This document shows, one piece after another, positions 6,342-24,561 of a stretch of DNA of 64,000 bases (positions are counted from its first letter, which is position 1; each line of letters begins with the position of its first letter). Where the stretch lies: NCBI RefSeq assembly GCF_018398335.1, contig NZ_JAHBRX010000001.1:3836001-3900000 (forward strand), in the 5' to 3' direction. Both the position numbers and the translations under genes were made by a program. The notes beneath the pieces are model-generated. The model searched no databases and had not been told where the DNA came from. It was given only the letters and a program-made list of their open reading frames with translations. Source of the stretch: Chelatococcus sp. HY11 (GTDB lineage: Bacteria; Pseudomonadota; Alphaproteobacteria; Rhizobiales; Beijerinckiaceae).

Positions 6342-7145
6342 ATGTATTCGGAAAATACCCTTCCGGTGAAGCTGCTTGCGGTGCTGATCGCACTCTTCAT
6401 TGCCGCACCGATGTTCGTCGTCATCCCCATGTCGTTCTCGACGGCGCCCTCCCTCGAGTTCCCGCCGCCGGGATACTGGCTCGGCTACTACGAGCGCTTC
6501 TTCACCGATCGGAACTGGACGCTGCCCTTGTTCAATTCCATCGTCATCGGGCTTGGCACCACGGTGCTGACGCTGGTGCTCGCGGCGCCCGCGGCTTTCG
6601 CGCTCGTGCGTCACGATTTCCGCGGCAAGGCGTTGCTCAATCTCGCCCTGATGATGCCGCTCGTCGTGCCGCATATCGTCATGGCGCTCGCCTATTACAG
6701 CTATTTCGGCATGCTGCGGCTCGTGCAGAGCTACACCGGCCTCATCCTCGCCCATACCTGCCTCTCGATGCCGGTGGCGATCCTCATCCTGACGGCGGCG
6801 CTGAAGACCTTCGACCGCAATCTGGAGCGGGCCGCCGCCAATCTCGGCTCGCGGCCGCTGACCACCTTCCGGCTCATCACCTTGCCGGTGCTGAAGCCCG
6901 CGTTCCTTGTCGCCGGCCTCTTCGTCTTCATCCACTCCTTCGATGAGACGGTGATCGCCTTGTTCATCTCCGGTCGCGATACCACGACGCTGCCCCGGCA
7001 GATGTTCAACTCGTTCCTCATGCAGGCCGACCCGGTGCTGTCGGCCGCGTCCTCCGTCCTTTTCACCGCCGTGCTCATCGCAGTCGCTGTGCCGGCCGTC
7101 GTGCGGGCGGTGCGCGGCAAGCGCGCGGTCTCCCCACGATCGTAG
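6342..7145 (+). CDS. ABC transporter permease (PotC-like)
   Basis: Second inner-membrane permease, 267 aa, with about six membrane segments starting with LLAVLIALFIAAPMFVVIPM. The EAA loop reads RAAANLGSRPLTTFRLITL. The short cytoplasmic N-terminus and length fit PotC. It is 2 bp downstream of the PotB-like gene and 44 bp upstream of the ATPase gene, so the four transporter genes form one unit. Confidence 0.9.
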   Translation: MYSENTLPVKLLAVLIALFIAAPMFVVIPMSFSTAPSLEFPPPGYWLGYYERFFTDRNWTLPLFNSIVIGLGTTVLTLVLAAPAAFALVRHDFRGKALLNLALMMPLVVPHIVMALAYYSYFGMLRLVQSYTGLILAHTCLSMPVAILILTAALKTFDRNLERAAANLGSRPLTTFRLITLPVLKPAFLVAGLFVFIHSFDETVIALFISGRDTTTLPRQMFNSFLMQADPVLSAASSVLFTAVLIAVAVPAVVRAVRGKRAVSPRS

Positions 7146-7189
7146 TCAGTCCACCATTCATCGTCGTTTCATTCGTCTGAGAAGAATTC

Positions 7190-8254
7190 ATGCAGCCGCG
7201 TTCCTTGATCCTGACAGATCTCGTCAAGTCCTATGATCGGCGAACCAATGCCGTCGACCATATCGATCTTCGGATCGAGGCGGGCGAATTCGTTTCATTT
7301 CTCGGGCCATCCGGTTCCGGGAAAACAACCACCTTGATGATGATCGCCGGCTTCGAGCAGCCGACCTCGGGGGAGATCAAGCTCGACGGCCGCGCCATCG
7401 AGCAGGTGCCGCCCTATGACCGCAACATCGGCATGGTGTTCCAGAACTATGCGCTGTTTCCGCATATGACGGTGCGCGGCAATGTCGGCTATCCCCTGCG
7501 CATCCGCCATGTGGCGAAAGACGAGATGCGCCAGCGGGTCGACAAGGCGCTCGCCATGGTGGGACTGAGCACTTTCGGGGAGCGATATCCCGCGGAGCTT
7601 TCTGGTGGCCAGCAGCAGCGTGTCGCGCTGGCGCGCGCCCTCGTCTTCGAGCCGGGCCTCATCCTGCTCGACGAGCCCCTGGGCGCGCTCGACAAGAATC
7701 TGCGCGAGCATATGCAGGTGGAGCTGAAGCGCATCCACAAGGAACTCGGCGTCACCATGATCTATGTGACGCATGACCAGACCGAGGCGATGACGATGTC
7801 GGACCGCATCGCCGTGTTCAATGCCGGCCGTATCGAGCATCTCGGCACCCCGACTGAGGTGTATTTCAAGCCGCGCACACGCTTCGTCGCATCCTTCGTG
7901 GGCGACAGCAATCTCCTCGAGGGCACCACCGGCAAGGGGGGCGTCGTCGAAGTCCCCGGCTTCGGCCCGGTCGCCACGGCGGGCACCGACCTGCCTGCCG
8001 GCTCGCCGGCACTGCTGCTCATGCGGCCGGAGATCTTCGAGGTGGTGGCGGACGGGGAGGGGGCTTCCGTGACCGCCAACCGCCTTCAGGTGGCCGATGT
8101 CGTGAACTATGGCGACAGTCTGCTTCTCATCGGCAAGGCGGGCGAGCAATCCCTGCGCGTGCGGGTGCCGAGCCGGGTCGCCGCGGGCTATGAAGCGGGC
8201 GGGCATTATGGCATCCGCTGGAATCCGGCCAATGTGCAGGTGGTGGGCAACTGA
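7190..8254 (+). CDS. ABC transporter ATP-binding protein (PotA-like)
   Basis: ATPase of the importer, 354 aa. It has Walker [10 protein letters not shown] near residue 42, a Q-loop ([14 protein letters not shown]), the signature LSGGQQQR near 138, Walker [13 protein letters not shown] and the switch His in [12 protein letters not shown]-terminal TOBE regulatory domain occupies about residues 245-354, as in PotA/FbpC proteins. It energises uptake through the two upstream permeases. Family-level assignment is certain; the transported compound is not. Confidence 0.92.
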
Positions 8255-8325
8255 CCACCCGGGCAGACGACAAGCCCCGCGGATCCTGATATTCACGGCG
8301 GAAGCCTGTTTCGGGAGACCGCCTG

Positions 8326-9819
8326 ATGACCGCCTATTCCGAGCTCTACGCCCATTTCGGCCGTGTCGCGGCGCTGGCCAATGCGGTCGGCATCCTGCAG
8401 TGGGACAACGACACCATGATGCCGCGCGGCGCGGCCGTGACGCGCGCCGAAAGCATGGCGCTGCTGCATGTCCTGCGCCATGGCATGATGACCGACCCGC
8501 GTATCGGTGACTGGCTGGAGGCGGCCGCCGCGGATACGGGCCTCGGTGCCTGGGAAAAGGCCAATCTGCGCGAAATCCGCCGGGTCTGGACGGTCGAGAC
8601 CGCGGTGCCGCCGGATCTCGTCGAGGCGTCGAGCAAGGCGATCTCGGCCTGCGAGATGACCTGGCGGCAGGCGCGCGCCGATTCCGACTTCAAGGCGCTG
8701 CTGCCGACGTTGACGGAAGTCCTCAACCTGCAGCGTGCCATCGGCGAGGCCAAGGGCGCGAAGCTCGGCCTCTCCGCCTATGACGCCCTGCTGAATGACT
8801 ATGAGCCCGGCGGGCATTCCACGGCCATTGATGCATTGTTCGATGATCTGGCTGACTTCCTGCCGGGGCTCACCGCAGAGGTGCTGGAGGTCCAGGCCCG
8901 CCGGCCTGCCGATCCGCCGCTGGCGGGTCCCTTCCCGGTTGCCGCGCAGCGCGCGCTCGGCATGCAGATGATGGAGGTGCTCGGCTATGATTTCGAGCGT
9001 GGGCGGCTCGACGTCTCGACCCATCCATTCTGCGGTGGGGCGGACAACGATGTACGCATCACGACGCGCTACGACGAGGACGATTTCACGAGCGCCCTGA
9101 TGGGGGTGATCCATGAGACGGGTCATGCCCTCTACGAGCAGGGGCGCCCCCAGGCCGAACTTGGCCAGCCCGTCAGCGTCGCGCGCGGCATGAGCATCCA
9201 CGAGAGCCAGTCACTGCTCATGGAGATGCAAGCCTGCCGTAGCCGCGAGTTTCTCCGCTTCGCCGCGCCGGTGATGCGCAAGGCGATGGGGGGCAGCGGC
9301 CCTGCCTGGGAAGCCGACGCCCTGTGGCGCCGCTATACGCATGTGGAGCGCGGCTTCATCCGCGTCGACGCGGACGAGATCACCTATCCAGCCCATGTTA
9401 TCCTGCGCTACCGCCTGGAGAAGGCGCTAGTCGCCGACGCGATGCCGCTCGCGGAACTGCCGCTTGCCTGGAACGCGGGCATGCGCGACCTCCTCGGGGT
9501 GACGCCGCCGAACGACCGGCTCGGCTGCCTCCAGGACGTGCACTGGCCGAGCGGCGGCTGGGGCTATTTTCCCACCTACACGCTCGGCGCCATGACGGCG
9601 GCCCAGCTTTTCGACGCGGCCTGCAAGGCCAATCCAGATGTTTTGCCGGCTATCGGCCGGGGCGACTTCGCGCCGCTCGTCAACTGGCTCCGCTCGAATA
9701 TCCATATCTATGGATCATTTTATGAGACGAACGATCTGTTGACCCACGCAACCGGCCGGCCGCTCGACGCGAGCGTTTTCAAGGCGCATCTGCGCCGGCG
9801 CTATATCGAGGAAGTCTAG
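8326..9819 (+). CDS. M32 family metallocarboxypeptidase
   Basis: A zinc carboxypeptidase of the Taq/Pfu type (M32), 497 aa, normal for the family. The HExxH motif is HETGH at about residues 263-267 in GVIHETGHALYEQGRP. Other family landmarks are GILQWDNDTMMP near the N-terminus, ISTRY-like ITTRYDEDD before the zinc motif, and HESQSLLMEM after it, which supplies the third zinc ligand Glu. It is cytosolic (no signal). It follows the ABC importer by 71 bp on the same strand, suggesting that an imported peptide or peptide-like compound is hydrolysed here together with the M19-like protein. Confidence 0.93.
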   Translation: MTAYSELYAHFGRVAALANAVGILQWDNDTMMPRGAAVTRAESMALLHVLRHGMMTDPRIGDWLEAAAADTGLGAWEKANLREIRRVWTVETAVPPDLVEASSKAISACEMTWRQARADSDFKALLPTLTEVLNLQRAIGEAKGAKLGLSAYDALLNDYEPGGHSTAIDALFDDLADFLPGLTAEVLEVQARRPADPPLAGPFPVAAQRALGMQMMEVLGYDFERGRLDVSTHPFCGGADNDVRITTRYDEDDFTSALMGVIHETGHALYEQGRPQAELGQPVSVARGMSIHESQSLLMEMQACRSREFLRFAAPVMRKAMGGSGPAWEADALWRRYTHVERGFIRVDADEITYPAHVILRYRLEKALVADAMPLAELPLAWNAGMRDLLGVTPPNDRLGCLQDVHWPSGGWGYFPTYTLGAMTAAQLFDAACKANPDVLPAIGRGDFAPLVNWLRSNIHIYGSFYETNDLLTHATGRPLDASVFKAHLRRRYIEEV

Positions 9820-10164
9820 GTGGGGGTGCGTTGCCCTCACCCCGCCCCTCTTCCATTCGGGAGAGGGGGCGCCAGTGATCCGCCTCTGGGCGATGGCGAT
9901 GGTTTTGGGGAGAGGTGAAGGACGGTATCGGGACGCTTCGGTGCAGTATCGGTGAAACAGACGATCATTGGCGTCCCTTCTCCCCGGCGGGGAGAAGGAC
10001 AGGATGAGGGGAAAGCAGCGTTCAGGAATGCGAGCCAGGCCTTGCTCCAGATGCTGTTCGTCTGGAGCATTTCCAGTTAACTCCGGTTCACCGGCAATGC
10101 TCTAGGTTTTTGTTTTTTCGCATTTCCTTCACGCGAACCGGTTTCAACTTCGCTCGAAAATGCT
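9820..10164. repeat. Cluster of extragenic palindromes (REP-like)
   Basis: Gene-free stretch filled by three palindromic elements: CCCCTCTTCC/GGGAGAGGGG at 9845-9868; a perfect 10-bp stem CCTTCTCCCC/GGGGAGAAGG at 9976-9998; and a longer element from 10061 to about 10167 with GAGCATT (10065-10071) pairing AATGCTC (10096-10102) and ending GCTCTA. These resemble the dispersed intergenic repeats of rhizobial genomes. The final element supplies the TAG stop codon of the CBS-domain gene on the minus strand. Confidence 0.7.
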
Positions 10165-10911
10165 CTAATCTTTCGCGCCCCCCGTGAATTCTTCCGGCGC
10201 GGGGCCGTCGGGGGCTTCGATGAACATGCCGGAGACAGGTTCGACATAGGTCAGGTGGTCCTTCACCGCCTTGGTGCCGGGAATGCCCTCGGCCAGCACT
10301 TTCAAGGCGTAACGCACTTCGTCGGTGACGATGACGCCGACGAGATGCACGACCCCGTCACGGACGAAGACATCGACACCATTGACTGGCGCCCAGGGCT
10401 GCTTGGCGACCTCGGTCATGATCGCGTCCTGAATCGCCGCGTCCCCGCGGGCGGGTTCCGGACGGCGAAGCAGCGCCACGTTCAGCGCCTTGAGAAGGTC
10501 CGCGCGGGTGATGATGCCGATGAGCCGTCCATCGCGCACCACCGGGATGCGCTTTACGCTTTTGCTCTCCATCAGAGCCACGACGTCCTCAAGGCTTGAG
10601 TCGGGCGCGACGGTCGCAACCTCGCGCGTCATCACCTCCTCGACGCGACGGGCGTGGGCCTGCACATAGTCCTCGGCAAGGCGCCCGGGCCCCAGGATGT
10701 AGGAGAGCCACCGCGGCCGCTTGGTCTCGGTTCCGAGCTCGGCTCGCCGCAGGAGGTCACCTTCAGTCACGATGCCGACGAGCTGCCCGCTCGCTTCGAC
10801 GACGGGAAGACCACTGTATCCATGCTCGATGAGCAACTGGACTGTATCGGCGATCGTCGCATTGGCCGGCACGCTCATCACCGTGGTCGTCATGACATCC
10901 GAGGCTTTCAT
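10165..10911 (-). CDS. CBS-pair and BON domain protein
   Basis: A cytosolic 248-aa protein with two CBS domains (about residues 2-60 and 90-150) followed by a BON domain (about 165-235), a combination widespread in alphaproteobacteria and often found in stress or low-oxygen regulons. CBS pairs bind adenine nucleotides. The frame runs on upstream, but the start at 10911 (MKASDVMTTTV) is chosen because it begins the first CBS motif and is preceded by AAAGGAGCAGGCC. It is transcribed divergently from the alcohol dehydrogenase; two FNR/FixK-like boxes lie between them. The partner it regulates is unknown. Confidence 0.88.
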   Translation of the reverse strand: MKASDVMTTTVMSVPANATIADTVQLLIEHGYSGLPVVEASGQLVGIVTEGDLLRRAELGTETKRPRWLSYILGPGRLAEDYVQAHARRVEEVMTREVATVAPDSSLEDVVALMESKSVKRIPVVRDGRLIGIITRADLLKALNVALLRRPEPARGDAAIQDAIMTEVAKQPWAPVNGVDVFVRDGVVHLVGVIVTDEVRYALKVLAEGIPGTKAVKDHLTYVEPVSGMFIEAPDGPAPEEFTGGAKD

Positions 10912-10963
10912 GGCCTGCTCCTTTCGACGCGGCTCACCATCGGACTGGGCGATCCTGGCCGCA

Positions 10964-10977
10964 TTGACAGCGATCAA
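10964..10977. promoter_or_regulatory. FNR/FixK-like box 1
   Basis: TTGACAGCGATCAA matches the FNR/FixK consensus TTGAT-N4-ATCAA with one mismatch. It is in the divergent promoter region between the CBS/BON gene and the alcohol dehydrogenase, 53 bp upstream of the CBS/BON start codon. Confidence 0.55.
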
Positions 10978-10984
10978 ACGACAC

Positions 10985-10998
10985 TTGATCGACGTCAA
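10985..10998. promoter_or_regulatory. FNR/FixK-like box 2
   Basis: TTGATCGACGTCAA matches TTGAT-N4-ATCAA with one mismatch, and its centre is 21 bp (two helical turns) from box 1. A TATAAT hexamer at 11025-11030 lies downstream toward the alcohol dehydrogenase. If used, it puts the box centre near -45, close to the usual activator position. Confidence 0.6.
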
Positions 10999-11085
10999 GG
11001 ACAAATAATTGATGCTGCATACCTTATAATCCGGCACGTTGCGGCAAGGCCCCGTTGCGCCAGCTGCCCAAAGGGAGAAGACGTC

Positions 11086-12159
11086 ATGCCCAGAATGAAA
11101 GCCGCTATCTTCGTCGAACCCGGCCGTATCGTTCTCGATGAGAAGCCCGTGCCCGACATCGGCCCGCTCGATGCACTTCTGCGCATCACGACGACCACCA
11201 TCTGCGGGACGGACGTCCACATCCTCAAGGGCGAGTATCCGGTTGCCAAGGGGTTGACGATCGGCCATGAGCCCGTCGGCATCATCGAGAAGCTCGGCTC
11301 GGCCGTCACGGGTTATCGCGAGGGGCAACGCGTCATCGCCGGTGCCATAACCCCGAGCGGCCACAGCTATGCCTGTCTGTGCGGTTGCTCATCGCAGGAC
11401 GGCCCGGACACGCGTCACGGCTTCAAGGCCACGGGTGGCTGGAAATTCGGCAATACGATCGACGGCGCGCAGGCTGAGTATGTCCGGGTGCCGGACGCTA
11501 TGGTCAACCTGAGCCCGGTGCCCGATCATCTGACTGACGAGCAGGTGCTAATGTGCCCGGACATCATGTCGACAGGCTTTTCCGGCGCCGAGAACGGCGG
11601 CGTGCGTATCGGGGATACCGTCGTCGTTTTCGCACTGGGTCCGATCGGGCTTTGTGCGGTTGCCGGCGCCAAGCTGATGGGGGCCACGACGATCATCGGC
11701 GTCGATACGGTGCCGGAGCGTCTGGCTGTCGCCAAGGCGCTCGGCGCCGATCACGTGGTCGACTTCAAGCAGGGCGATCCGGTCGAGCAGATCATGGCCC
11801 TCACGGATGGGCGTGGCGTCGACGTATCGATCGAGGCGCTGGGAACGCAAGGCACCTTCGAATCGGCGCTGCGCGTGCTGCGGCCGGGTGGAACGCTGTC
11901 GAGCCTCGGTGTGTATTCCAGCGACCTGACCATTCCCCTCAACGCCTTTTCCGCCGGGCTCGGCGACAACCGCATCGTCACGGCTCTGTGCCCCGGCGGC
12001 AAGGAACGCATGCGTCGTCTGATGGATGTCATCGCGTCGGGCCGCGCGGATCTGACGGCGCTTGTCACACACCGGTTCAAGCTCGACGACATCGAGACGG
12101 CCTACGAGCTGTTCTCCCATCAGCGCGACGGGGTGCTGAAAGTGGCGATCACGCCCTGA
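11086..12159 (+). CDS. Zinc-dependent alcohol dehydrogenase (medium-chain)
   Basis: NAD(P)-linked medium-chain dehydrogenase, 357 aa. The catalytic zinc ligands Cys40 (ICGTDVH) and His61-Glu62 (GHEPVG) are present; the coenzyme fold is at about residues 175-215 (VVFALGPIGLCAVAGAKLMGA). The structural-zinc lobe is degenerate (YACLCGCSSQDG), as in secondary-alcohol (isopropanol-type) dehydrogenases. The start at 11086 (MPRMKAAIF) follows AAAGGGAGAAG; the frame is open much further upstream but that overlaps the divergent CBS gene. A role in low-oxygen alcohol/aldehyde metabolism is inferred from the FNR-like boxes upstream. Substrate is unproven. Confidence 0.88.
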   Translation: MPRMKAAIFVEPGRIVLDEKPVPDIGPLDALLRITTTTICGTDVHILKGEYPVAKGLTIGHEPVGIIEKLGSAVTGYREGQRVIAGAITPSGHSYACLCGCSSQDGPDTRHGFKATGGWKFGNTIDGAQAEYVRVPDAMVNLSPVPDHLTDEQVLMCPDIMSTGFSGAENGGVRIGDTVVVFALGPIGLCAVAGAKLMGATTIIGVDTVPERLAVAKALGADHVVDFKQGDPVEQIMALTDGRGVDVSIEALGTQGTFESALRVLRPGGTLSSLGVYSSDLTIPLNAFSAGLGDNRIVTALCPGGKERMRRLMDVIASGRADLTALVTHRFKLDDIETAYELFSHQRDGVLKVAITP

Positions 12160-12184
12160 CGCGTGACCGACGCCGCAAATAAGA

Positions 12185-12208
12185 ACGCCGCCCGGATCCG
12201 GGCGGCGT
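12185..12208. terminator. Perfect 24-nt GC palindrome between convergent genes
   Basis: ACGCCGCCCGG and its exact reverse complement form a perfect palindrome centred at 12196/12197. It lies 25 bp after the alcohol dehydrogenase stop and faces the FixK-like gene on the other strand. There is no U-tract, so it may be a transcript-end hairpin rather than a classical intrinsic terminator. Confidence 0.45.
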
Positions 12209-12236
12209 CAATGTCAGCGGTTTCCCGGTCGCTGCC

Positions 12237-12292
12237 TCTCACCTCTCCCTGGTGAGGGAGAGGTCGCGCTGCAGGCGCGGGTGAGGGGGATG
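12237..12292. repeat. REP-like palindromic element
   Basis: CTCACCTCTCCC, a short loop and GGGAGAGGT followed by GCGCGGGTGAGGGG: a palindromic extragenic element of the same kind as those at 9845-9998, located between convergent genes. Confidence 0.6.
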
Positions 12293-12412
12293 CACGCATT
12301 GAAATCGATCAGTCCCTCGTCCCATTCCTCTACCCGCCAGGGAGAGCGAGAAACGCGCGCGTCCTTCCTCGGTTGATTCGATTGCACGTCGGCAGCGTGA
12401 ATATCGATGATC

Positions 12413-13183
12413 CTAGCCTGCGCAGGCAAAGGAGATGTCGTCATTCCGCTCCTCGTCGGCCCCGCCGCTGAGTTCGCGCAGGCCCCGTGGGCGCTCGATG
12501 ATCAGGTGGTAGCGGCCGCGAAAGGAGATCATCCCGTCGCGCTGCATTCGCGTCAGGACGCGGCTCACCGTTTCGATGGTCAGGCCGAGATAGTCGGCCA
12601 TATCGAGGCGGCTCATTGGCAGGTCGATTTCCCGCGGCGACTGACCGATGCGCTCGGCCATGGCGAGAATGAAGCTCGCCACGCGCTCATCCGCCGTCTT
12701 GCGACCGAGCAGCACGATCTGGTCCTGCGCGCGGGCCAACTCCTTCGCGATGGTGGCGAGGGCTTCCGGGCGAAGGCTTGGGATCACGTCGGCTGCATTG
12801 TAGAGGCTGCGGCGCGACACACGGCGGAGTTTGATTTCGCCGACAGCCTCGGCGCTGCAGGGATAGCGGCGCGTGAAGGCTATACCGACGATCTCGCCCG
12901 CGCAGGCAAAGCCTGTGATCGCTCGCCGTCCGTCGGGCAGAGAACGGTAGAGCCTCAGCAGGCCTTCCACGACGGTGAAGACATCCTCGGCGTCATCACC
13001 TTCCCAGAAAACGGTCTGGCCAGCATCGAAGGACTCAAGCGCGGCGTCCCGGAAAAGTGAGCCGAGACTTGGCTCCTCCGGTCCGGCCTGCATTGCATGT
13101 CCCTCGCGCGCCGCCAGAGCGGGCTGCCGTGCGGGGAAGGGAAAGATGGGGGCAGCGGCCAAGGCGGTGGTCAGAGTCTGCAT
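12413..13183 (-). CDS. Crp/Fnr-family regulator, FixK-like
   Basis: A 256-aa regulator with a cyclic-nucleotide-type beta-roll (about residues 40-130), a dimer helix (140-175) and a winged helix-turn-helix (175-235). The recognition helix LTIETVSRVL carries Glu204, Ser207 and Arg208, the E-x-x-S-R pattern of FNR/FixK proteins that read TTGAT half-sites. The N-terminal cysteine cluster that holds the FNR iron-sulfur centre is absent (Cys only at 94, 109 and 253), so it is not a direct O2 sensor of the FNR kind. An internal ATG at residue 31 is an alternative start. It sits between the twin-box CBS/ADH genes and a FixL-like kinase, suggesting an O2-dependent cascade. Confidence 0.85.
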   Translation of the reverse strand: MQTLTTALAAAPIFPFPARQPALAAREGHAMQAGPEEPSLGSLFRDAALESFDAGQTVFWEGDDAEDVFTVVEGLLRLYRSLPDGRRAITGFACAGEIVGIAFTRRYPCSAEAVGEIKLRRVSRRSLYNAADVIPSLRPEALATIAKELARAQDQIVLLGRKTADERVASFILAMAERIGQSPREIDLPMSRLDMADYLGLTIETVSRVLTRMQRDGMISFRGRYHLIIERPRGLRELSGGADEERNDDISFACAG

Positions 13184-13269
13184 AACGCTCTCCTGTCGAG
13201 GTGCGACAATGAGAAAAGCCCGACCGTGTGACGCGCGTGTCAGAACTATCGCAAGAATCTGTGCGATTG

Positions 13270-13285
13270 TGTAACAGTTTGTAAT
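13270..13285 (+). promoter_or_regulatory. Direct repeat TGTAAC-N4-TGTAAT, possible response-regulator site
   Basis: TGTAAC (13270-13275) and TGTAAT (13280-13285) are direct repeats with 10-bp periodicity, the arrangement bound by OmpR-family dimers. They are immediately upstream of the response-regulator gene. Autoregulation is inferred. Confidence 0.4.
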
Positions 13286-13287
13286 CG

Positions 13288-14058
13288 GTGAAGGTTGAGC
13301 TGCGATTTGGGGCGGGTTTGAGCGACGACGACAAAGGATCAGCGCATATCCTTGTGGTGGATGACGAGGTTCGCATCCGGGATATGCTCCATCGCTATTT
13401 CGAGGGCGAAGGTTTCAAAGTCACCTTGGCCGATGGCGGACCCGCCATGCGCGCGGTTCTTGAGCGCGAGCACGTCGACCTTGTCTTGCTCGACCTGATG
13501 ATGCCCGGTGACGACGGTTTCACCCTCGCCAAGGAGATCCGCGCCCGTCCGGATATCGGCATCATCATGCTGACGGGGCGCAGCGACATGGTCGACCGGG
13601 TTGTCGGCCTGGAAGTCGGCGCCGACGACTACATCGCGAAGCCTTTTCATCTGCGCGAGGTTCACGCGCGGGTCAAAAGCGTGCTCAGGCGGCTGCAACC
13701 AAGCGCCCGGCCACCCGGCCAGGTCGCTCCCTCAGCGGAGCAGACCCTGCGCTTCGACGGATGGCTGCTCAACCTCGATCGCCGCCAGCTGACGACGCCG
13801 ACTGGCGACGACGTCGCGTTGACCACCGGCGAGTTCGATCTGCTCGCGGTGTTCGTCAGCAACGCTGGGCGCGTGCTGGACCGCGACCGGCTGATGGATC
13901 TGACCCGGGGGCGTCACTGGGAAGCTTTCGATCGCACCATCGATGCGCAAGTGGGGCGTTTGCGCCGCAAGCTCGACATCGATCCCCGGATCCCCTCGCT
14001 CATCAAGTCCGTGCGCGGCGTCGGCTACGTCTTTACAGGCGCCGTCGCGCGGGGCTGA
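13288..14058 (+). CDS. OmpR-family response regulator
   Basis: Two-domain response regulator, up to 256 aa. The receiver domain occupies about residues 18-135, with acidic pocket VVDDE, phospho-acceptor Asp in VLLDLMMPG (about residue 70), and Lys in YIAKPF. The winged-helix OmpR/PhoB DNA-binding domain is at about 150-250 (DRDRLMDLTRG, VGRLRRKLD, VRGVGYVF). The GTG at 13288 is the longest start and lies beside a direct-repeat candidate operator; TTG 13318, nearer to the receiver domain, is an alternative. It converges with the FixL-like hybrid kinase 28 bp downstream, its most likely partner, although that kinase carries its own receiver. Confidence 0.9.
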   Translation: MKVELRFGAGLSDDDKGSAHILVVDDEVRIRDMLHRYFEGEGFKVTLADGGPAMRAVLEREHVDLVLLDLMMPGDDGFTLAKEIRARPDIGIIMLTGRSDMVDRVVGLEVGADDYIAKPFHLREVHARVKSVLRRLQPSARPPGQVAPSAEQTLRFDGWLLNLDRRQLTTPTGDDVALTTGEFDLLAVFVSNAGRVLDRDRLMDLTRGRHWEAFDRTIDAQVGRLRRKLDIDPRIPSLIKSVRGVGYVFTGAVARG

Positions 14059-14086
14059 TCGTCCCGGCATCCACGTCGTCTGGCGC

Positions 14087-15757
14087 TCAATCGAGGACGC
14101 TGCGGAGCTTTTTGGCCAGGGCCGTTGTCGTATAGGGCTTCATCAGCCATTGGGCCGTCGATGCCGGATGCCGCATGACGAGGTCCGGTTCGGCATAGCC
14201 GGACGTGAGCAGGAGCTTGATGGCGGGACGCAGCGTCTGCACCGCCGTCGCGAGATCGCCTCCAGTCATGCCGCCTGGCATCACCATGTCCGTGAAGACG
14301 AGCGCGATTTCCTCGTGGCGCTGGAACATCTCGAGCGCCAAGGGGCCGTTCTCGGCCTCCATGACATCATAGCCGAGATCGCGCAGGCGGCTGACGGTGA
14401 CACGGCGCACGCGCGGGTCATCCTCGACGACCAGGATCGTCTCGCCCTTCGCCCTTGGCAACGAGGCCGGGGTATCGACTGATGTGACCTCATCGGCGTT
14501 ACGCTCGGGAACCACGACTGGCAGGAACAGCCGCACCGTCGTGCCATGGCCGGGCTCGCTGTAAAGTTGGACGTGTCCGCCGGATTGCTTGACGAAGCCA
14601 TACACCTGGCTGAGGCCGAGCCCCGTGCCGGCGCCAACCCCCTTGGTCGTGAAGAACGGTTCGAAAGCGCGGTCGCGCACTTCGGGGGTCATGCCCGAGC
14701 CGCCGTCGGTGACCGCGATCAGAACGTAATGGCCGGGGGAAACGTCCGGATATATTTCGCAATAGCTCGCGTCGAGTTCAGCGCGGCTGACCTCGATCGT
14801 CAGCCGCCCCCCGCCCGGCATGGCGTCCCGCGCATTGATGCCCAGATTGAGCAGGGCGTTCTGCAACTGCGACGCATCGACCACGGCCTGCAGGTTATGC
14901 TCGTCCACGACCATGCGCACGTGCACGGTCTCGCCCAGCGTGCGCCGCAACAGTCCCGCGAATTCGCTGACAAGCCTGCTGATGTCGACCAGTTTGGGAT
15001 CAAGGGGATGCCGGCGCCCGAAGGCGAGCAGGCGTTCCGTCAACTGGGCGCCGAGCTGGGCGGCCTCCTGCGCTTCGCGAACAAGGGTGTGCTTCAGCGG
15101 ATCCGGCTGCAACCGCTGTTCCAGCATTTCGAGATTGCCGAGGATGACCGTCAGCAGATTGTTGAAGTCATGGGCGATGCCCCCGGTGAGCTGTCCTATG
15201 GCTTCCATCTTCTGGGCATGGCGAAGTTCCTGCTCCATGCGATGCCGCGATGTCAGGTCGCGGATGAAGCCGGTGAACAGCCGCCGGCCGTTGGCCATGG
15301 CTTCGCCCACAGCCAGTTCCATAGGAAACGTCGAGCCGTCCTTGCGTAATCCCTCGACGGTGCGACCGATCCCTATGATGCGTTTCTCGCCCGTGGCGAG
15401 GTATCGGCTGAGGTAGCCATCGTGGGCGGCGCGGTGGGGCGCCGGCATGAGCATGCTGACGTTGCGGCCCACGACTTCGTCGGCATCGTACCCGAACAGG
15501 ATTTCCGCGGACTTGCTGAATGATTCGATGTGGCCTCGCTCGTCGATGGTGACGAGTGCCTCAGGGGCCGTCTCAAGGATAGAGCGCAGCCGTGCCTCAC
15601 GCTCGCGCAGCACGCTTTCCGTATCGCGCTTGTCAGTGCGCGCCTCTTCAAGGGGCGCGCTTCTCCTGGTGGCACTCTGGGTCACGCCGGCTTCGTCCCT
15701 GGATCCCCGACATAGTCTCATTGACTGCAAATCTAGCGCTCTTCCCGCGCCATTCAT
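14087..15757 (-). CDS. Soluble hybrid histidine kinase with FixL-type haem PAS domain
   Basis: A 556-aa kinase without membrane segments. Order of domains: PAS (about 52-170), HisKA (phospho-His196 in GIAHDFNN), HATPase (about 255-415) and a C-terminal receiver (about 438-556; Asp490 in [11 protein letters not shown]). The PAS domain closely follows Fix[17 protein letters not shown], then AHDGYLSRY with His112 where FixL has its proximal haem ligand, and IIGIGR with Arg132 where FixL has the O2-sensing arginine. The His-Arg spacing of 20 equals that of FixL (His200/Arg220 in Bradyrhizobium). Unlike FixL it is hybrid and no fixJ is nearby; an OmpR-type regulator is convergent and a FixK-like gene is 0.9 kb away. 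Haem binding is predicted, not shown. Confidence 0.88.
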
Positions 15758-15854
15758 TGCGCGATGTCAAACCCGCTATGGCGATTTTTGTGCCGGGAAG
15801 TTTCGCGCAACACAGGTCTATCGCAGAAAATCTCTGAATAGCCTCCAAGCCAGC

Positions 15855-15873
15855 CTGCGGCAGTCTGCCGCAG
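15855..15873. promoter_or_regulatory. Perfect inverted repeat in a divergent promoter region
   Basis: CTGCGGCA-GTC-TGCCGCAG, an 8-bp perfect inverted repeat with a 3-bp centre, lies between the divergent hybrid-kinase and cell-wall-hydrolase genes. It could be an operator; no regulator is assigned. Confidence 0.35.
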
Positions 15874-16029
15874 TTAGCCTTGAATCCGTTAAAGTTTTGG
15901 TAACTTTTTGGAAGTTTTCTCGTCATGTTGCCGCAAAAAAACACGCGGCGGTTGATGGACGAACCGAGCGCCACCGTTATAGTGCGGACATCTGTGGCGT
16001 CAGGGAGCTCCGGCATTGGATATAGCGGC

Positions 16030-16971
16030 ATGAACGAACGCAGCTTCGCGAAGATCTCGATGGGCTTGGCCTTGCTGCTTGTGTCACTGTCGCTCGGTGC
16101 CTGCAGCGCTTCTCGTGGAACGGTCTCCGACGCGCGTACATATTCTGGCACCAGCCGGGAATGTCTCGCACGTGCCATGTATTTCGAATCCAATCGCTCG
16201 AGTGAAGACGGCATGCTCGCCGTGGGCTCCGTGGTGATGAACCGCGTCGAGTCGCAGCAGTTCCAGAATTCTGTTTGTGGTGTCGTCGGCGCGCCCCGGC
16301 AATTCGCCCAAGGCGTCTTGTCCAAGCCGATGAAGGAAGGGGCCTCGAGGGAGCGCGCGCTCAAGGTAGCGGATGCCGTTCTTTCCGGCAGGCGCCACAA
16401 GGGTGTCGACAAGAAGGTCATGTACTTCCACACGGCCGGCTTGAAATTCCCCTACAACAATATGCATTACACGGTCGTGGCCGGTGGCAATGCCTTCTAC
16501 GAGAAGCGCGGCCGCAAGCCGACGATCCCGGTCGCGCCGATCGAGACCGCCTCGCCGGTCATCATGGTCGCGGATGCCCGGCCCGCCCCACGCGCTGTGC
16601 CGAGCTTCGTGACTGCCTCGGCGGATCAGCCTGAGCGCGTGACCGAAGCGCGCACGGTCGTCGCGAGCTATGCGCCGGTGCAGGAACCCGCGCCGGCACC
16701 TGTCGTCGCGCAGGTCCAGCCTCAGACGCAGCCGGCCGCGGTGGCCGTGCAGGCGGCGGTCGAGCCGGAGCCCGTCAGGACGCCGGTCATCCGCACGGCG
16801 ACGCCCGCAAAACCCGTCTACCAGCCTAAGCCGGTCGTCGTAGCCTCAATGATGCCGCTGCCGCCCAGCCGTTCGGTCGTGGCAGCTCCGCCGGCGCGCG
16901 CGCCGCGGAATCTGACGGAGCTCATCGAGGCGACGTCGCATGTGAATGCGGGTCTCGGCCCGATCTATTGA
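16030..16971 (+). CDS. SleB-type cell wall hydrolase, predicted lipoprotein
   Basis: A 313-aa envelope protein. Starting at ATG 16030 gives a lipoprotein signal (LLLVSLSLGAC, lipobox cysteine about residue 25); the frame is open upstream from 15925 but without a signal. The cell wall hydrolase (SleB/Hydrolase_2) domain is at about residues 35-155, with the family hallmarks LARAMYFESNRSSEDGMLAVGSVV (split here by context), the early Glu as probable catalytic residue, and a late FYEKR motif. Residues 170-300 are a Pro/Ala/Val-rich low-complexity tail, probably a periplasmic linker. It is expected to cut peptidoglycan. An intrinsic terminator follows at 17000. Confidence 0.8.
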   Translation: MNERSFAKISMGLALLLVSLSLGACSASRGTVSDARTYSGTSRECLARAMYFESNRSSEDGMLAVGSVVMNRVESQQFQNSVCGVVGAPRQFAQGVLSKPMKEGASRERALKVADAVLSGRRHKGVDKKVMYFHTAGLKFPYNNMHYTVVAGGNAFYEKRGRKPTIPVAPIETASPVIMVADARPAPRAVPSFVTASADQPERVTEARTVVASYAPVQEPAPAPVVAQVQPQTQPAAVAVQAAVEPEPVRTPVIRTATPAKPVYQPKPVVVASMMPLPPSRSVVAAPPARAPRNLTELIEATSHVNAGLGPIY

Positions 16972-16999
16972 TCATACCCACGTTTGCGGATGAATGCTT

Positions 17000-17026
17000 A
17001 GAGCCACCCCATGGGTGGCTCTTTTG
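17000..17026 (+). terminator. Intrinsic terminator after the SleB-type gene
   Basis: AGAGCCACCC (17000-17009), a 3-nt loop and GGGTGGCTCT (17013-17022) give a perfect 10-bp stem followed by TTTGC. Confidence 0.85.
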
Positions 17027-17079
17027 CTTTGTGCCGAATCAGCATGCGCACGTAATCGACGTAATCGGCGGAGTGGTCT

Positions 17080-18483
17080 CTACCGGCTCGCCGTTGCGGC
17101 CGGAGCGGCTTGCCAGCCGCCGCCCAAAGCCCGAAACAGCCCGACGCTGGCCTGCAGGCGCTGAAGATTCATTCCCGCCATCTGGTCTTCCGCCTGGAAG
17201 AGCGTGCGTTGCGCGTCCAGCAGCGTGATCAGATCCGTCGCGCCGGCGCGGTAGCGCGCATCGGCGAGGCGGAAGGCGATCTGCGCCTGCCGCTGCTGTT
17301 CCGCCACGAAAACGGACTGCCGATTGAGCGTCTCGACCGCCTTCAGCGCGACGCTGACATCGGCGAAGGATGCGGCGAGGACCGCGCGGTAGCTCGCGAT
17401 GAGTTCCTGCTGGGTGGCGAGCGCCACATCCCGTTGGCCGATCAGCCGCCCGCCCTCGAAGATCGGCTGAGCCAGCCCGGCGGCGAGGCCGTAGCCGAAG
17501 GCGCCGCCGCTGAACAGGGAGGTCAGCGCGGTGCTCGCAAGATTGGTGGTGCCTGTCAGGTTGATAGTCGGGAAAAAGGCGGCGCGCGCGGCCTGCACAT
17601 CGGCCCCGGCCGCCGCCAGGCGCTCTTCCGCCGCCTTGATGTCAGGGCGGCGCGTCAGGAGCCCGGAGGGCAACCCGGGCTTGACCTGCGGCGCGCGGAG
17701 GCCGGCGAGCGAACTGCCGGCTACGGTGAATGTGTCGAGCGGTTGATCAAGCAGCACCGCCAGCGCCGACCGGGCCTCGAATTCCTGCCTCTCGAGCTGG
17801 GGGAGCGTTGCCTCCTGGCCGGCGATGACCGCCCGCTGCTGGGCAAGGTCGAGATCCGTTCCCGCGCCGGCGCGGACGCGGGCCTCGATGGTGGCGAGCA
17901 CGCTGCGGGCATTGGCAAGATTGGAGCGGGCGATGCGCAGCCGGTCTCGCAGTGACAGCACGGTCAGGTAGTTGTTCACGACATCCGCGGTGATGCTCAG
18001 CGCGACCGTGTTCTGGTCGGCCGTGCTGGCCCGCAGCGTGGCCTGGGCGGCAGCCTCGTTGGCCCGAAGCCTGCCCCACAGGTCCACCTCGTAGCTGCCA
18101 CCGATGCCGGCCCCGTAGGACCGCGTGACGTTGCTGTTGCCGGCATTGCCGCGCAAGGCCGCGTCCGCATCGAAACCGATGCTCGGGAACAGCGCGGCGC
18201 CGACGACACGGGTGCGCGCCTCGGCCTGCAGGATTCGCGCCGCCGCGATCGCGATATCGGTGTTGTTGGCATGGGCGGTCACGACGATCGTGTCGAGTTC
18301 CCTGCTGCCGAAGCCGCTCCACCAGCCCGGGGCGGGCCAGGTCGGGGCGCTGTTGGCGACCGGTGCGCTCCAGCCACGCGGCTCGGCAACCGCTGGCTTG
18401 TCGCCAGGCGCGCCGACACACCCCGCGATCGAGGTCATCAAGGCCGCGCCGCAGCCATAGCCGATGATGGAGATGAGCTTCAT
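17080..18483 (-). CDS. Outer-membrane efflux lipoprotein, NodT/OprM (TolC) family
   Basis: A 467-aa outer-membrane channel of a tripartite efflux system. The N-terminus is a lipoprotein signal ([17 protein letters not shown], lipidated Cys about residue 22). Two OEP repeats follow, with family phrases such as [18 protein letters not shown] near residue 150, [31 protein letters not shown] (split here as a motif region) near 275 and [12 protein letters not shown] near 430. Its start codon overlaps the MacB stop codon by 4 bp, so macA-macB-channel form one operon transcribed leftward. Substrates could be macrolides, lipids or other amphiphiles; not determinable here. Confidence 0.9.
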
Positions 18484-20483
18484 TCGTTGGCGAGCGCGAC
18501 GACGGGATCAAGGCGGGACGCCTTGATCGCAGGAGCGAGACCAAAAAGGAAGCCCGTGCTGACGGCGCAGCCGAAAGCCAGGAGCACCGGGCCGGCGCTG
18601 AGCTGCACGGTCATGCCGGTCAATGTCGTGACCCAGGCGGCGAAGAAGCCGAGCGCGATGCCCGCGATGCCGCCGCAGGCGGATATGACGAAGGCCTCCG
18701 TCATGAACTGGCTCAATATGTCACGTGTCCCGGCGCCGGTCGCCATGCGGATGCCGATCTCGCGCGTGCGTTCGGTGACGCTCATCAGCATGACGTTCAT
18801 GACGCCGATGCCGCCGACGAGGAGGGAGATGGCTGCGATGGAACCGAGCAATATGGTCATGGTGTTGGCGGTCGCCGAGACTGTTTCGATCAGTGAAGCC
18901 ATGTTGCGGATCTGGAAATCCTCCTTTCCGTGCCGGTCGGTAAGAAGGGTCCGAACGTCGGTCTCGCTTTGGTCTATCCGGCTCGTGTCCGCCACCGCGA
19001 CAGTGATCGACTGGACATGGCGACGGCCAAAAATCCGGAGGCTGCCGGTGGTGATCGGAACGATCATCACGTCGTCCATGTCGCGCCCGCCGGAATTCGC
19101 GCCTTTGGGCGCCATCACGCCGATGATCTGGAAGGGCACATTATTGATGATGATGAATCGCCCCAGCGGTTCCTCCCCGTCGGGAAACAGGATGTTCGCG
19201 ACGGTGGTGCCGAGAACGACGACCGCCGCATAGCTCTCCGCATCCTCGGGCGTGAAGAAGGTACCATGCGCGATATCCCAGCGCTGGGCGACGGGATAAC
19301 CGGAGGTCGTCCCGGTGGCGAGGGTGCTGTAGTCGACGCGCCCGCCGCGCACCGTGACCGATGACGAGATCTCCGGCACGGCGACGATCACATTCTCCTG
19401 TTTCGCGATCGCCTCGGCATCCGCTGGCACGAGGCTCGTCACCGAGCCGCCGGCCGAGAAGCGCTGGTTGGGTGCGCCCGGGCGGACCAGAAGAAGATTG
19501 CTGCCCATGGCCGACACGCGGTCGAGCACGTTGCGCTTGGCGCCTTCCCCGACGGCCAGCATGGCGATGACGGAGGCGACGCCGATCATGATGCCGAGCA
19601 GCGTGAGAAGGGTACGGAACGGGTTGGTGCCCAATGCCCGCATCGCCATCTTGGCGGCTTCCGCCATTTGGCCGGCGGGATGACGGCTTGCCGGCGCCGG
19701 ATGGGCCGGCAGTCCGTGTGATGCGGTGCGGTCGAGATGGGTGAGATCGTTGCCGGTGTCGGACACGATCCGTCCATCCTGGATCTCGACCACGCGCCGG
19801 GTCTGCGCGGCGACATCGCGGTCGTGGGTGATCAGGATGATCGTGCGGCCTTCGTCCGAAAGGCGCTTCATCAGGTCAAGCAGCTGCTGTCCGCTCTTGC
19901 TGTCAAGGGCGCCGGTCGGCTCGTCGGCGAGAATGACGCGGCCGTCGTTCATCAGGGCGCGGGCGATCGAGACGCGCTGTTGCTGACCGCCGGAGAGCTG
20001 ATTTGGCAAGTGCTCCAGCCGCTCGCCGAGCCCCAGATCGGTCAGGATGCTCTCCGCCACCGCGTGGCGTTCGCTGGCTGGCCGGCCGGCATAGATGGCC
20101 GGGATCTCGACATTCTCGACCGCCGTCGCATTCGCGATGAGGTTGTAGCTCTGGAAGACGAAGCCGAATTCGTGTCGCCGAAGCTGCGCGAGTTCGTCGC
20201 GTGACAGATCGTCCACGTCGCGCCCGGCGAAGCGGTAGCGACCCGCGCTCGGCCGGTCGAGGCAGCCGAGAATGTTCATCAGGCTCGATTTGCCGGAGCC
20301 GGAGGAGCCGACGATCGCCACGAACTCGCCGGGATAGATCGTGAGCGAGATGCCCTTCAGCGCCTCGGCGCGAATGCCGCCATCGGTCACATAGACCTTG
20401 GTGATGCCCTCGAGCTCGATCAGCGGCTGAACCGGCACCTTCGGTTGCGCGAGAGACTGGCGGGTATCGAGCTCGACGTTCAT
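18480..20483 (-). CDS. macB: MacB-type ABC transporter (ATPase-permease fusion)
   Basis: A 667-aa inner-membrane protein. An N-terminal ATPase domain (about 20-245) has Walker A GSSGSGKS at 59-66, signature LSGGQQQR near 163 and Walker [15 protein letters not shown] first membrane segment follows at about residue 285, then a large periplasmic MacB domain (about 300-535) and three C-terminal FtsX-type segments (about 545-660). It transfers energy mechanically to the MacA/TolC-like channel. It is 13 bp downstream of the adaptor gene and overlaps the channel gene. The length matches MacB (about 650 aa). Confidence 0.92.
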
Positions 20484-20496
20484 GGCGGCCCCCGCG

Positions 20497-21732
20497 TCAG
20501 AAGCGCATGCGGGGGAGGCCCGGAGGGCCGCCGGGGCGGTTGCCCTGCGCGGTGCGGGCGTCTCCGGTGCGGTTGCCGACCACCACGCGCTCCCCTGGCT
20601 CTATGCCGGAACGGATTTCGGCCAGCACGCGGTTGGTCACGCCGACGTCCACGGGCCGGGTCTCGATCGAGCCGTCGTCGCGCACCACATCGACGGTCGC
20701 CTTCCGCTCGCGGCCGCCACGTTTCACCGCGGAGAACGGTACCGTGATCACATCGCTGGCTTCCGCCACCACGAAATAGACCTGCGCCGTCATCTGGGTC
20801 ATCAATTCCTGCTTGGGATTGGCGACGTCGAACAGGGCCGTATAGAGCACGACGTTATTGACGATCTCGGGGGTCGGCATGATCTGCCGCAGCGTGCCGG
20901 TCCAGCGCCGTTGCGGCATGCCGAGCGTGTTGAAATAAGCCTTCATGCCGAGCTTGAGCCGCGACACGTCCGCTTCCGACACCTGGGTCCAGATGGTCAT
21001 GGTCGACAGGTCGGCGATGCGCAGGATGATCGGGGCCTGCTGGTTGGTGTTCAGCGTCTGCCCCTTGCGCGCGGTCAGCGACACCACCGTTCCGGCCATG
21101 GGCGCGAAGATCTTGGTGTAGCCGAGCGTCGCCTCGTCGCCGCGGATCGTCGATTCAACCTGGCTGATCTGGGCTTTCAGCATGTCGATCTGCGCCTCAG
21201 CAGAGCGCGCGGCGGCATCGGCGCTCTCGTAAGCCTCCTCGCTCGTCGCCTTGTCACGGCGAAGCCTGCCCTGGCGCTCAAACACCTGGCGGGCGAGGGT
21301 CGCCTGCGCCTGTCGATCGACGAGCTGCGCCTTCAGGCTCGCAAGCTGCGCCCGCCCGCCCTCGACCCGCGCGACAAGCACGACGGGATCGATCTCGGCC
21401 AGCAGGAAATTGTTGGGCACTTCGTCGCCCACGACGACGTGGATCTGCTTGAGCTGGCCTGATACCTGGGCGCCCACATCCACATAGTCGCGTGGTTGAA
21501 TGTTGCCGAGCGCGGAGACGGCGTCCTCGATATCGCCGCGTGTCGCGACAGCAGTCACGGGTTCCGCGCGCGCCTCTGTCTCCGACGCGGCACGCATGTA
21601 ACCCATCGCCCCGGCTCCGGCCGCGAGTATCACGATCGCGAGGAGCGTGAGGCGCCAGCGCGAGCGTCCGCGGCGCTTCGCCGGCACAGGCTGCGCCTTG
21701 TTGCCCGCCGAGGGATTGGTGCTGTCGGTCAT
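20497..21732 (-). CDS. macA: MacA-like periplasmic adaptor (HlyD/MFP family)
   Basis: A 411-aa membrane-fusion protein with one N-terminal membrane anchor ([19 protein letters not shown], about residues 28-46). Then come a lipoyl-type barrel-sandwich half ([18 protein letters not shown]), a helical hairpin rich in Ala/Gln (about 105-200), and beta-barrel and membrane-proximal domains containing [11 protein letters not shown] and [16 protein letters not shown]. It links MacB to the outer-membrane channel. It is the first gene of the three-gene efflux operon; the 259 bp upstream hold the presumed promoter. Confidence 0.9.
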
Positions 21733-21991
21733 CAGGGTTCGGCTCCGCCGTCGATCACTTCTGCCGGAACATCCCGAAGCTCAATCAAAGCGTTCGCTGC
21801 CTCAAGCCTGATATAAGTCGCGTATGTTTCTCTGATCGGTGATATCCGTGGGCAGATCAATAGCGGCAGCCGCGTCCACGCCGCCGAAATCGCATTAAAT
21901 TTTTGTAAACCTTGGCCGCCGCGCGACTGTTGCAGGCAAGTGTGGCAAGCTGTTGTAGCGCGACATCACGATCGCTGGAGCGTCGTGGGGG

Positions 21992-23512
21992 TCAGGCTCT
22001 GGCGCGAACGGCACCCAGTATCGCCGCTAGACCAGAGGTGCAGGCCGCGATGATGAGCATGGCGTTGGGGGCGTTGTGGCCGAGCAACCCGAAAACGGTG
22101 CCGGCTGCGGCAACGCCAAAGGTCTGGCCGACGAGGCGCGCTGATGACTGCATGCCACTGGCACTGCCGCTGCGGGACCGTGGAACGCCCATGAGCATGG
22201 TGATGTTGTTCGGCGTCTGAAACAAGCCAAAGCCCACACCCGCGAAGGCGAGCCGCCAGAGAATATCCATCGTTGTGGCCGTGGCGGGCAGCATGGCGAG
22301 CAGGGCGATCCCGAGCGTCATCAGCACGAGGCCAGCCGAAGAGACATAGGGCGCGGGGTAACGGTCGGCCAGACGGCCGGCGAGGGGCGCCGTGCAGGCG
22401 ACCGCGACAGGCCAGGCCGTCATCACGAAGCCCGCCTGGATCACCGGCCAGCCGAGGATGTCCTGCAGGTAGAAGGCGAGCGCCAGGAACGTCATGGCCT
22501 GGGTGGCGAAGGACGAGATGGACGTCAGGATCGACAGGCTGAATATCGGTCGTTTCAAGAGGTCGATCGGCAGGAGGGGCACCGGCAGTTTGAGCTGCCT
22601 GCGTACGAAGAACACGCCGACGATGGCGGATACGACGAGCTCCATTATCGGCAGGGTTCGATCCGCGGCACCGCCAATCGTACTGACCCCCCTGATCAAC
22701 AGGCCGATCACCACGGCATAGAGCACAGTGCTGATGGCATCGAAGGGGCGTCCTGAACGCGGAGTGAGCGGCAGGTAGCGCAGCGACGCGACAAGCGCGA
22801 AAAGGCCGATCGGAACGTTGACGAGGAACAGCCAGTGCCACGACGCGACGGAAAGGATCGAGGCGCCGATGGTCGGCCCCGAGGCGATGGACAGCGCGAC
22901 GATCACAGCCATACGCCCTGCGCCGACGCCGAGCATATGCGGCGGATAGATGAAGCGTACCAGCGCGAAGTTCACGCTCATGACGCCGGCCGCCCCCAGG
23001 CCCTGGATGGCGCGGCCCGCGAGGAGAACCTCGAAGGACGGCGCCACGGCGCAAAGCACCGAAGCGAGCGTGAAGACCGCGAGGCCGGTGCAGTAGACTC
23101 GCTTGTAGCCATGGCTGTCACCCAGGGCGGACAGGGGCAGCAGGGCAATCGTCACCGCGAGCTGGTAGATGTTGACGAGCCAGATGGCCTGCGCGGCGGG
23201 CACATTGAGATCGCGCGCCATGTGGGGCAGGGCGATATTGACGGCGGTGCCGTCGATCACGGAAAGGCTTACCGCCGCGGCGATGGCAATGGAGGCGAGG
23301 TTGCGGGCGGCGCGAGGCAGGCCTTCCTCGCTCATCGTGGGCTTCGGCGGATCCGCGGGCGGCGCGACGTCGTTCCCGGCTGGCAAGGCCTCGCCCCGCG
23401 CATTCATGTCCGCAGAGGTCCCGGAGGAAGTTCCCGCTTGCGGCCCCTTGGCATCCCGGCGGTCCCTGGAACGTTGATCGTCCTTGGCCGCCTTGTCGCT
23501 GGAAAGCGTCAT
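21992..23512 (-). CDS. MFS drug/H+ antiporter, DHA2 (EmrB/QacA) family
   Basis: A 506-aa inner-membrane exporter with about 14 hydrophobic segments. The first membrane helix is preceded by an unusually long polar N-terminus of about 70 aa rich in Asp, Arg and Pro. Family motif C-like and D1-like sequences are visible: VIDGTAVNIALPHMARDL in helix 1 and SALGDSHGYKRVYCTGL in the loop 2-3 motif A. It lies 260 bp downstream of macA on the same strand, with space for a separate promoter. No adjacent adaptor gene of its own is present, so the substrate and any partner are unknown. Confidence 0.88.
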   Translation of the reverse strand: MTLSSDKAAKDDQRSRDRRDAKGPQAGTSSGTSADMNARGEALPAGNDVAPPADPPKPTMSEEGLPRAARNLASIAIAAAVSLSVIDGTAVNIALPHMARDLNVPAAQAIWLVNIYQLAVTIALLPLSALGDSHGYKRVYCTGLAVFTLASVLCAVAPSFEVLLAGRAIQGLGAAGVMSVNFALVRFIYPPHMLGVGAGRMAVIVALSIASGPTIGASILSVASWHWLFLVNVPIGLFALVASLRYLPLTPRSGRPFDAISTVLYAVVIGLLIRGVSTIGGAADRTLPIMELVVSAIVGVFFVRRQLKLPVPLLPIDLLKRPIFSLSILTSISSFATQAMTFLALAFYLQDILGWPVIQAGFVMTAWPVAVACTAPLAGRLADRYPAPYVSSAGLVLMTLGIALLAMLPATATTMDILWRLAFAGVGFGLFQTPNNITMLMGVPRSRSGSASGMQSSARLVGQTFGVAAAGTVFGLLGHNAPNAMLIIAACTSGLAAILGAVRARA

Positions 23513-23756
23513 TCCTAGTCCATGGGGTGCGACCGCAGTCTCACAAAGCCACTAAAACTCCAATGCGGCTCTATCGTTTTGCGCAATCTGCGACAAGCGC
23601 TCATTGCGCATGGCTTCTTTCCTTTTCATGAATGCGCGGCCTCCGCCTTTATTTTCCGAATTCTGCAGCCTATAAGGCGCCACATTTCCTTCATTCATTC
23701 TGGATCGCCGTTTGTGGCCATTGCGCTGTGAGCCGATCCGCCAGCCGGAGCAGACC

Positions 23757-24506: not shown

Positions 24507-24561
24507 GCATTCCGGCCTACGGACTGGTGTGTTCTCGCTTTGTTTCCGCTAGGCTGCAGGC

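Follow-up and report, generated by a model that had tools for sequence, protein, structure and literature searches.

A predicted hFixL-FxkR-FixK oxygen-response module with a convergent hfixL-like gene in Chelatococcus sp. HY11

The 64 kb stretch of the Chelatococcus sp. HY11 genome analyzed here (the window) encodes a hybrid histidine kinase with a PAS domain of the FixL type, and the question arises as to which regulatory output such a sensor is coupled. In the initial annotation, it was read as a haem-based O2 sensor wired to an output different from the classical one. An alternative to FixLJ is known in which the hybrid kinase hFixL acts through FxkR on fixK via the K-box GTTACA-N4-GTTACA, as described in PMC4999443 and PMC7888657. 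The system is credited to Zamorano-Sanchez et al. 2012 (as cited in PMC4999443 and PMC7769827), and FxkR is placed in the OmpR family in PMC7769827. In PMC7888657, plasmid pRL9 is described as carrying fixK9a-hfixL9, an operon under K-box control, as well as fixK9b/fxkR9; the same source describes a chromosomal cluster, fxkRc-fixKc-hfixLc, which has the gene set of the window and is devoid of a K-box in that strain. In PMC8226930, R. etli FixL is referred to, by citation, as an oxygen sensor based on haem, and for SmFixL, Soret bands near 418 nm (oxy) and 434 nm (reduced) are reported in PMC10765370. The locus in the window very probably represents an hFixL-FxkR-FixK oxygen-response module, as supported by its gene set, homology, operator position and conservation. 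The features concerned are as follows.

10964-10998, no strand assigned: two anaerobox-like sites, with one mismatch each to TTGAT-N4-ATCAA
12413-13183, minus strand: fixK-like gene, Crp/Fnr-family regulator (Pfam, comparison with FixK9b)
13270-13285, minus strand: K-box, predicted FxkR operator ATTACA-AACT-GTTACA (motif scan, conservation)
13288-14058, plus strand: fxkR-like gene, OmpR/PhoB-type response regulator (plasmid search, Pfam, tree)
14087-15757, minus strand: hfixL-like gene, soluble hybrid kinase (Pfam, FixL alignment, Foldseek, hFixL comparison)
15257-15592, minus strand: segment coding for the FixL-type haem-PAS, residues 56-167 (Pfam, FixL chains, Foldseek 1dp6)

The hybrid kinase and its FixL-type PAS domain

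The kinase gene forms an open reading frame of 556 aa, which runs from an ATG at 15757 to 14087 on the minus strand without internal stops and shows 85-93% identity across three same-genus genomes. Pfam assigned a PAS domain to residues 56-167, HisKA to 188-249, HATPase_c to 294-414 and Response_reg to 441-551, and the C-terminal receiver named in the initial annotation was thereby recovered. Its description of the kinase as soluble is a fair one, since no membrane segment was found and the 19-residue Kyte-Doolittle mean peaked at 1.01.

The PAS domain aligned without gaps to the haem-PAS chains of FixL (E = 1.1e-40 for 1d06 and 4.2e-38 for 1dp6). His112 aligned with the haem ligand and Arg132 with the O2-sensing Arg of FixL. 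The claim that this pair is kept at the FixL spacing was confirmed, and the proposed check against FixL PAS structures did not place His112 outside the haem pocket. At all ten positions compared for the haem pocket (112, 118, 126, 127, 128, 130, 132, 146, 148 and 150), the kinase has the letters of classical S. meliloti FixL. The pair is not trivial among PAS kinases, as is evident from two counts: it was present in 5 of the 50 genome_contigs loci with a best segment covering the PAS domain (80 loci in the set), and in 10 of the 17 PAS-covered loci of relatives, all ten of which share a 22-row branch with the hFixLs in a 113-row kinase tree. None of the five other loci of the same genome that were matched by the kinase query and read over the PAS domain (L003-L006, L162) carried the pair.

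The predicted structure agreed with this assignment. The AlphaFold model had a mean pLDDT of 76.9 and a pTM of 0.45, with most ten-residue blocks of the PAS domain above 80; His112 lies inside a helix (106-122), and Arg132 begins a strand (132-137). In Foldseek, the top rows by E-value were chimeric LOV-FixL kinases, followed by FixL PAS chains. Among the latter, the superpositions, which were listed without residue pairs, reached an rmsd of 1.1 over 114 columns for 1dp6 and 1.2 over 116 columns for 1lt0; further values were 1.5 over 142 columns for 8js5_A and 2.5 over 125 columns for 1d06. Judged from sequence, the gene probably encodes a haem-based oxygen sensor, with His112 as the probable haem ligand and Arg132 as the probable O2-sensing residue.

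Over 514-531 aligned columns, the kinase is 62.5% identical to hFixL of S. meliloti RU11, 60.7% to that of R. etli and 59.5% to that of R. johnstonii 3841, and the identity to these three is spread over the PAS domain (64-72%), the core (64-68%) and the receiver (56-60%). Compared with classical FixL of S. meliloti (pSymA), in contrast, 61.7% identity in the haem-PAS stands against 30.5% in the core, and no match to the receiver was obtained. An identity as classical FixLJ was rejected on the basis of this core identity, the absence of a membrane segment and the absence of an adjacent FixJ gene, while classical FixL is membrane-bound and has FixJ as its partner according to PMC7888657. That no fixJ is adjacent had been stated correctly before: the neighbours are the OmpR-type regulator and, next to it, a Crp/Fnr-type regulator. 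CckA, the cell-cycle kinase, was likewise rejected as an orthologue. Its DHp/ATPase core is 43% identical (5idj), but the sensor part differs, the PAS domain of the kinase being of the FixL type, and the best CckA model, at 332 bits, stayed far below its cut-off (1000).

From the 113-row tree, rows of up to 300 residues were omitted, as were 20 of the listed loci that duplicated the window or a retained locus or gave weak or partial matches. The kinase was placed in an 18-row branch (SH-aLRT 99) that also contains hFixL from S. meliloti, R. etli and R. johnstonii; the split of its group from a 12-row rhizobial group had a support of only 85. Classical S. meliloti FixL, carried by its PAS domain and with a long branch of its own (2.6), was also placed within the 18-row group. 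In a core-only tree of 39 of the 113 rows, it stood next to S. meliloti hFixL with a branch length of 10 and is therefore not confidently placed; that branch dominates the tree, which is hence given little weight. Among the 25 NCBIfam models shown, only the general PAS model TIGR00229 exceeded its cut-off, and the FixL model scored 257 with a cut-off of 850. The kinase is classed as a predicted full-length hFixL homologue, soluble and with a FixL-type PAS domain and a C-terminal receiver.

The regulator genes and the predicted K-box

The gene convergent with the kinase gene does encode an OmpR-type regulator, as the initial annotation had it (13288-14058, plus strand), and the two genes are 28 bp apart, with an upstream region of its own for hfixL. 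Among the plasmid matches listed, the R. etli p42f gene at 594574-595299 ranked first, with 61.4% identity. An identity of 62% was found to the R. johnstonii 3841 gene at pRL9 27191, which is fxkR9 by its fit to the transcription-start coordinates given in PMC7888657. In a regulator tree, from which seven duplicate loci and matches spanning up to 180 residues were omitted, the protein was grouped with FxkRs in a 13-row branch (94/95), separate from the three paralogues of the same genome that were included. It appears to be orthologous to FxkR. The gene was read from a GTG at 13288, only 2 bp from the K-box, and translation may actually begin at a TTG at 13318.

The gene on the other side of the regulator gene (12413-13183, minus strand) did not enter the reasoning of the initial annotation, and it is key to identifying the system. 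Pfam assigned cNMP_binding and HTH_Crp_2 to its product, which is 46.9% identical to FixK9b of R. johnstonii 3841 and scored 163 with the NCBIfam FixK model (cut-off 300). Cysteines are present at 94, 109 and 254 only, and the protein thus has no N-terminal FNR cysteine cluster. By domain content and similarity, it is predicted to be a FixK-type Crp/Fnr regulator without such a cluster.

A K-box with one mismatch to GTTACA-N4-GTTACA was located 86 bp before the start codon of the fixK-like gene. The corresponding spacing is 85 bp in R. etli, 85 and 87 bp for fixK9a and fixK9b on pRL9 and 88 bp in S. meliloti RU11. With up to one mismatch, this was the single site in 64 kb; none of 100 shuffles contained one, and 13 of 20000 intergenic Markov copies did. 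An identical K-box and the order CBS-ADH-fixK-fxkR-hfixL (CBS-domain and alcohol dehydrogenase genes first) were present in all three same-genus genomes. Since genome-wide matches with up to one mismatch were not enriched (6, compared with 12 for the reversed control), the call rests on position and conservation. At one mismatch, the K-box was absent near the FxkR-like genes of loci L093/L176, L097 and L099, which have sites with two mismatches each, and at L098 none was found even with up to two mismatches, despite an FxkR-like gene by the kinase gene. Given its fixK-conserved distance, the K-box in the window is a putative FxkR operator.

The proposed circuit and alternative explanations

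The circuit proposed here follows characterized homologues, from which the binding of haem, control by O2, phosphotransfer, DNA recognition by FxkR and the targets of FixK are inferred. The PAS domain would bind haem through His112, and haem-bound O2, kept in place by Arg132, would inhibit the kinase. When O2 is low, the kinase would autophosphorylate at His196 and FxkR would become phosphorylated; phosphorylated FxkR would bind the K-box and turn on fixK. FixK would then bind anaeroboxes and activate microaerobic genes, among which may be the cbb3 oxidase operon and the neighbouring CBS/ADH pair. For the kinase's own receiver, candidate roles are those of a phosphate sink, a relay or a brake.

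The initial annotation is retained in part. A FixL-type sensor is present and the convergent OmpR-type regulator is its likely partner, but the output that seemed unexpected is the described hFixL-FxkR-FixK one. The view of a rewired haem O2 sensor, with a new and non-classical output reached by way of its own receiver and an unrelated OmpR-type regulator, could appeal to the receiver itself, to the OmpR-type neighbour and to the lack of an adjacent FixJ gene. It is also in line with the search of the genome for classical FixLJ, which was not found: the best FixJ match (43%) lies behind another kinase, in which the haem pattern applied had no match. All of these features, however, belong to the described hFixL-FxkR-FixK system, and the K-box and a FixK-like gene are present in the window as well. 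New wiring is therefore not supported, and this explanation is extremely unlikely. That the adjacent OmpR-type regulator serves another kinase, and that the hybrid kinase has a different partner, e.g., the OmpR paralogue at C1:4228581 (47%, the next closest), is highly unlikely. The genome offers other candidates, with 44 matches to the OmpR-type protein at E <= 0.001 (itself included, many being receivers only), but the kinase and regulator genes are adjacent in all three same-genus genomes and also at L009, L096, L097, L098 and L099, and outside the genus both proteins are nearest to members of known hFixL/FxkR pairs and of the Bosea locus L009.

It is also very unlikely that the module is otherwise kept while its PAS domain lacks haem or senses redox, NO or another ligand. 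This possibility draws on loci L098 (G024) and L106 (G037), where an FxkR-like gene stands beside a kinase whose PAS domain lacks the His/Arg pair; the gene pair can therefore exist without the haem signature, and both loci are possible haem-less versions of the module. The PAS domain of the window kinase, in contrast, matches classical S. meliloti FixL at the ten positions given above, and its predicted fold agrees. An hFixL-FxkR-FixK module with a haem-PAS sensor remains the preferred interpretation.

Gene order, possible FixK targets and spread

The type of system is already known from Rhizobium and Sinorhizobium; what differs is the gene order, with hfixL convergent with fxkR. In R. etli CFN42 (p42f) and R. 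johnstonii (leguminosarum) 3841 (pRL9), as in the window, the kinase has the PAS-HisKA-HATPase-receiver architecture, a haem-PAS and an HDFNN-type core and shows no strongly hydrophobic segment; FxkR is of the OmpR type, and fixK is preceded by a K-box at a distance of 85-87 bp. Their hFixLs have an extra N-terminal region (641 aa compared with 556 aa), and their hfixL genes lie behind the K-box, after fixK and in its orientation, whereas in the window hfixL is convergent with fxkR. S. meliloti (RU11 plasmid pSmeRU11c; pSymA) shares a hybrid kinase with one PAS domain (RU11, 528 aa), the IIGIGR motif and a K-box, which is an exact one in RU11. Its hfixL follows fixK on the same strand and is divergent from fxkR. 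At position 118, S. meliloti hFixL has Asn, whereas the window kinase and classical FixL have Arg. The convergent order was also observed at L096, L097, L098 and L099.

Because hfixL is not part of the fixK operon controlled by the K-box, the circuit would have lost the positive loop, and thereby the feedback on the sensor, that is expected where fixK and hfixL form an operon. We tentatively consider it possible, though somewhat less likely than not, that this represents a reorganization at the level of the genus, and that the module drives low-O2 respiration or persistence (cbb3 oxidase, CBS, ADH) rather than nitrogen fixation. The difference in gene order allows a simple comparison between a circuit in which the sensor is under feedback and one in which it would not be. 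In the same genome, nifH gave one match, which was below the cut-off; the module should therefore serve low-oxygen respiration and not nitrogen fixation. A complete module with its putative operator is thus added from a genome without nifH over the cut-off.

Between 10165 and 12159, a CBS-domain gene is divergent from a zinc-type alcohol dehydrogenase gene (names read from sequence); the former was read to start at 10911 (minus strand) and the latter at or just before 11095 (plus strand). The anaerobox-like sites TTGACAGCGATCAA and TTGATCGACGTCAA lie between them, at 10964 and 10985, and are possible local FixK/FNR targets. Three anaerobox-like matches were found in the window, a number equalled in 4 of 100 shuffles. 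The CBS/ADH pair is conserved in the three same-genus genomes. CBS genes preceded by a one-mismatch anaerobox were also seen near the module at L173 and, close to fxkR9, on pRL9 (L122). Genome-wide, 11 exact anaeroboxes were present, compared with none in the reversed control. The genes ccoN, ccoO and ccoP scored over the cut-off, and one exact anaerobox is located 0.93 kb before the ccoN ORF; it lies two ORFs upstream, away from the ccoN start, and falls inside an ORF in its longest reading (L154 4191-4718). Five further Crp/Fnr-type matches in the genome could use anaeroboxes.

Outside the genus, a Bosea MAG (L009) carries a kinase with 63% identity, an FxkR-like protein with 61% and a K-box with one mismatch. 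In Rhodanobacter sp. C01, a gammaproteobacterium (L085, 5194-8851), an FxkR-like protein (49%) and a related hybrid kinase (45% over the best segment) were found, together with an exact K-box (GTTACACACCGTTACA) upstream of a weakly matching Crp-type gene (29%); the FixL haem motif was not found in this kinase by the pattern used. These two loci suggest a wider spread of the module. At L106, a one-mismatch K-box is present as well, and L098, L106 and L085 may represent sensor versions that no longer show the haem motif.

On the other side of the kinase gene, a cell wall hydrolase gene (15925-16971) precedes MacAB/TolC-like efflux genes (17080-21732: HlyD-type adaptor, MacB-type ABC transporter, OEP outer membrane factor). 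In a comparison of positions 7000-25000 with plasmids, the best matches listed covered 4%. Elsewhere in the genome, 10 kb of contig C4 (28000-38000, L163) are 99.1% identical to the Ancylobacter polymorphus plasmid NZ_CP083242.1.
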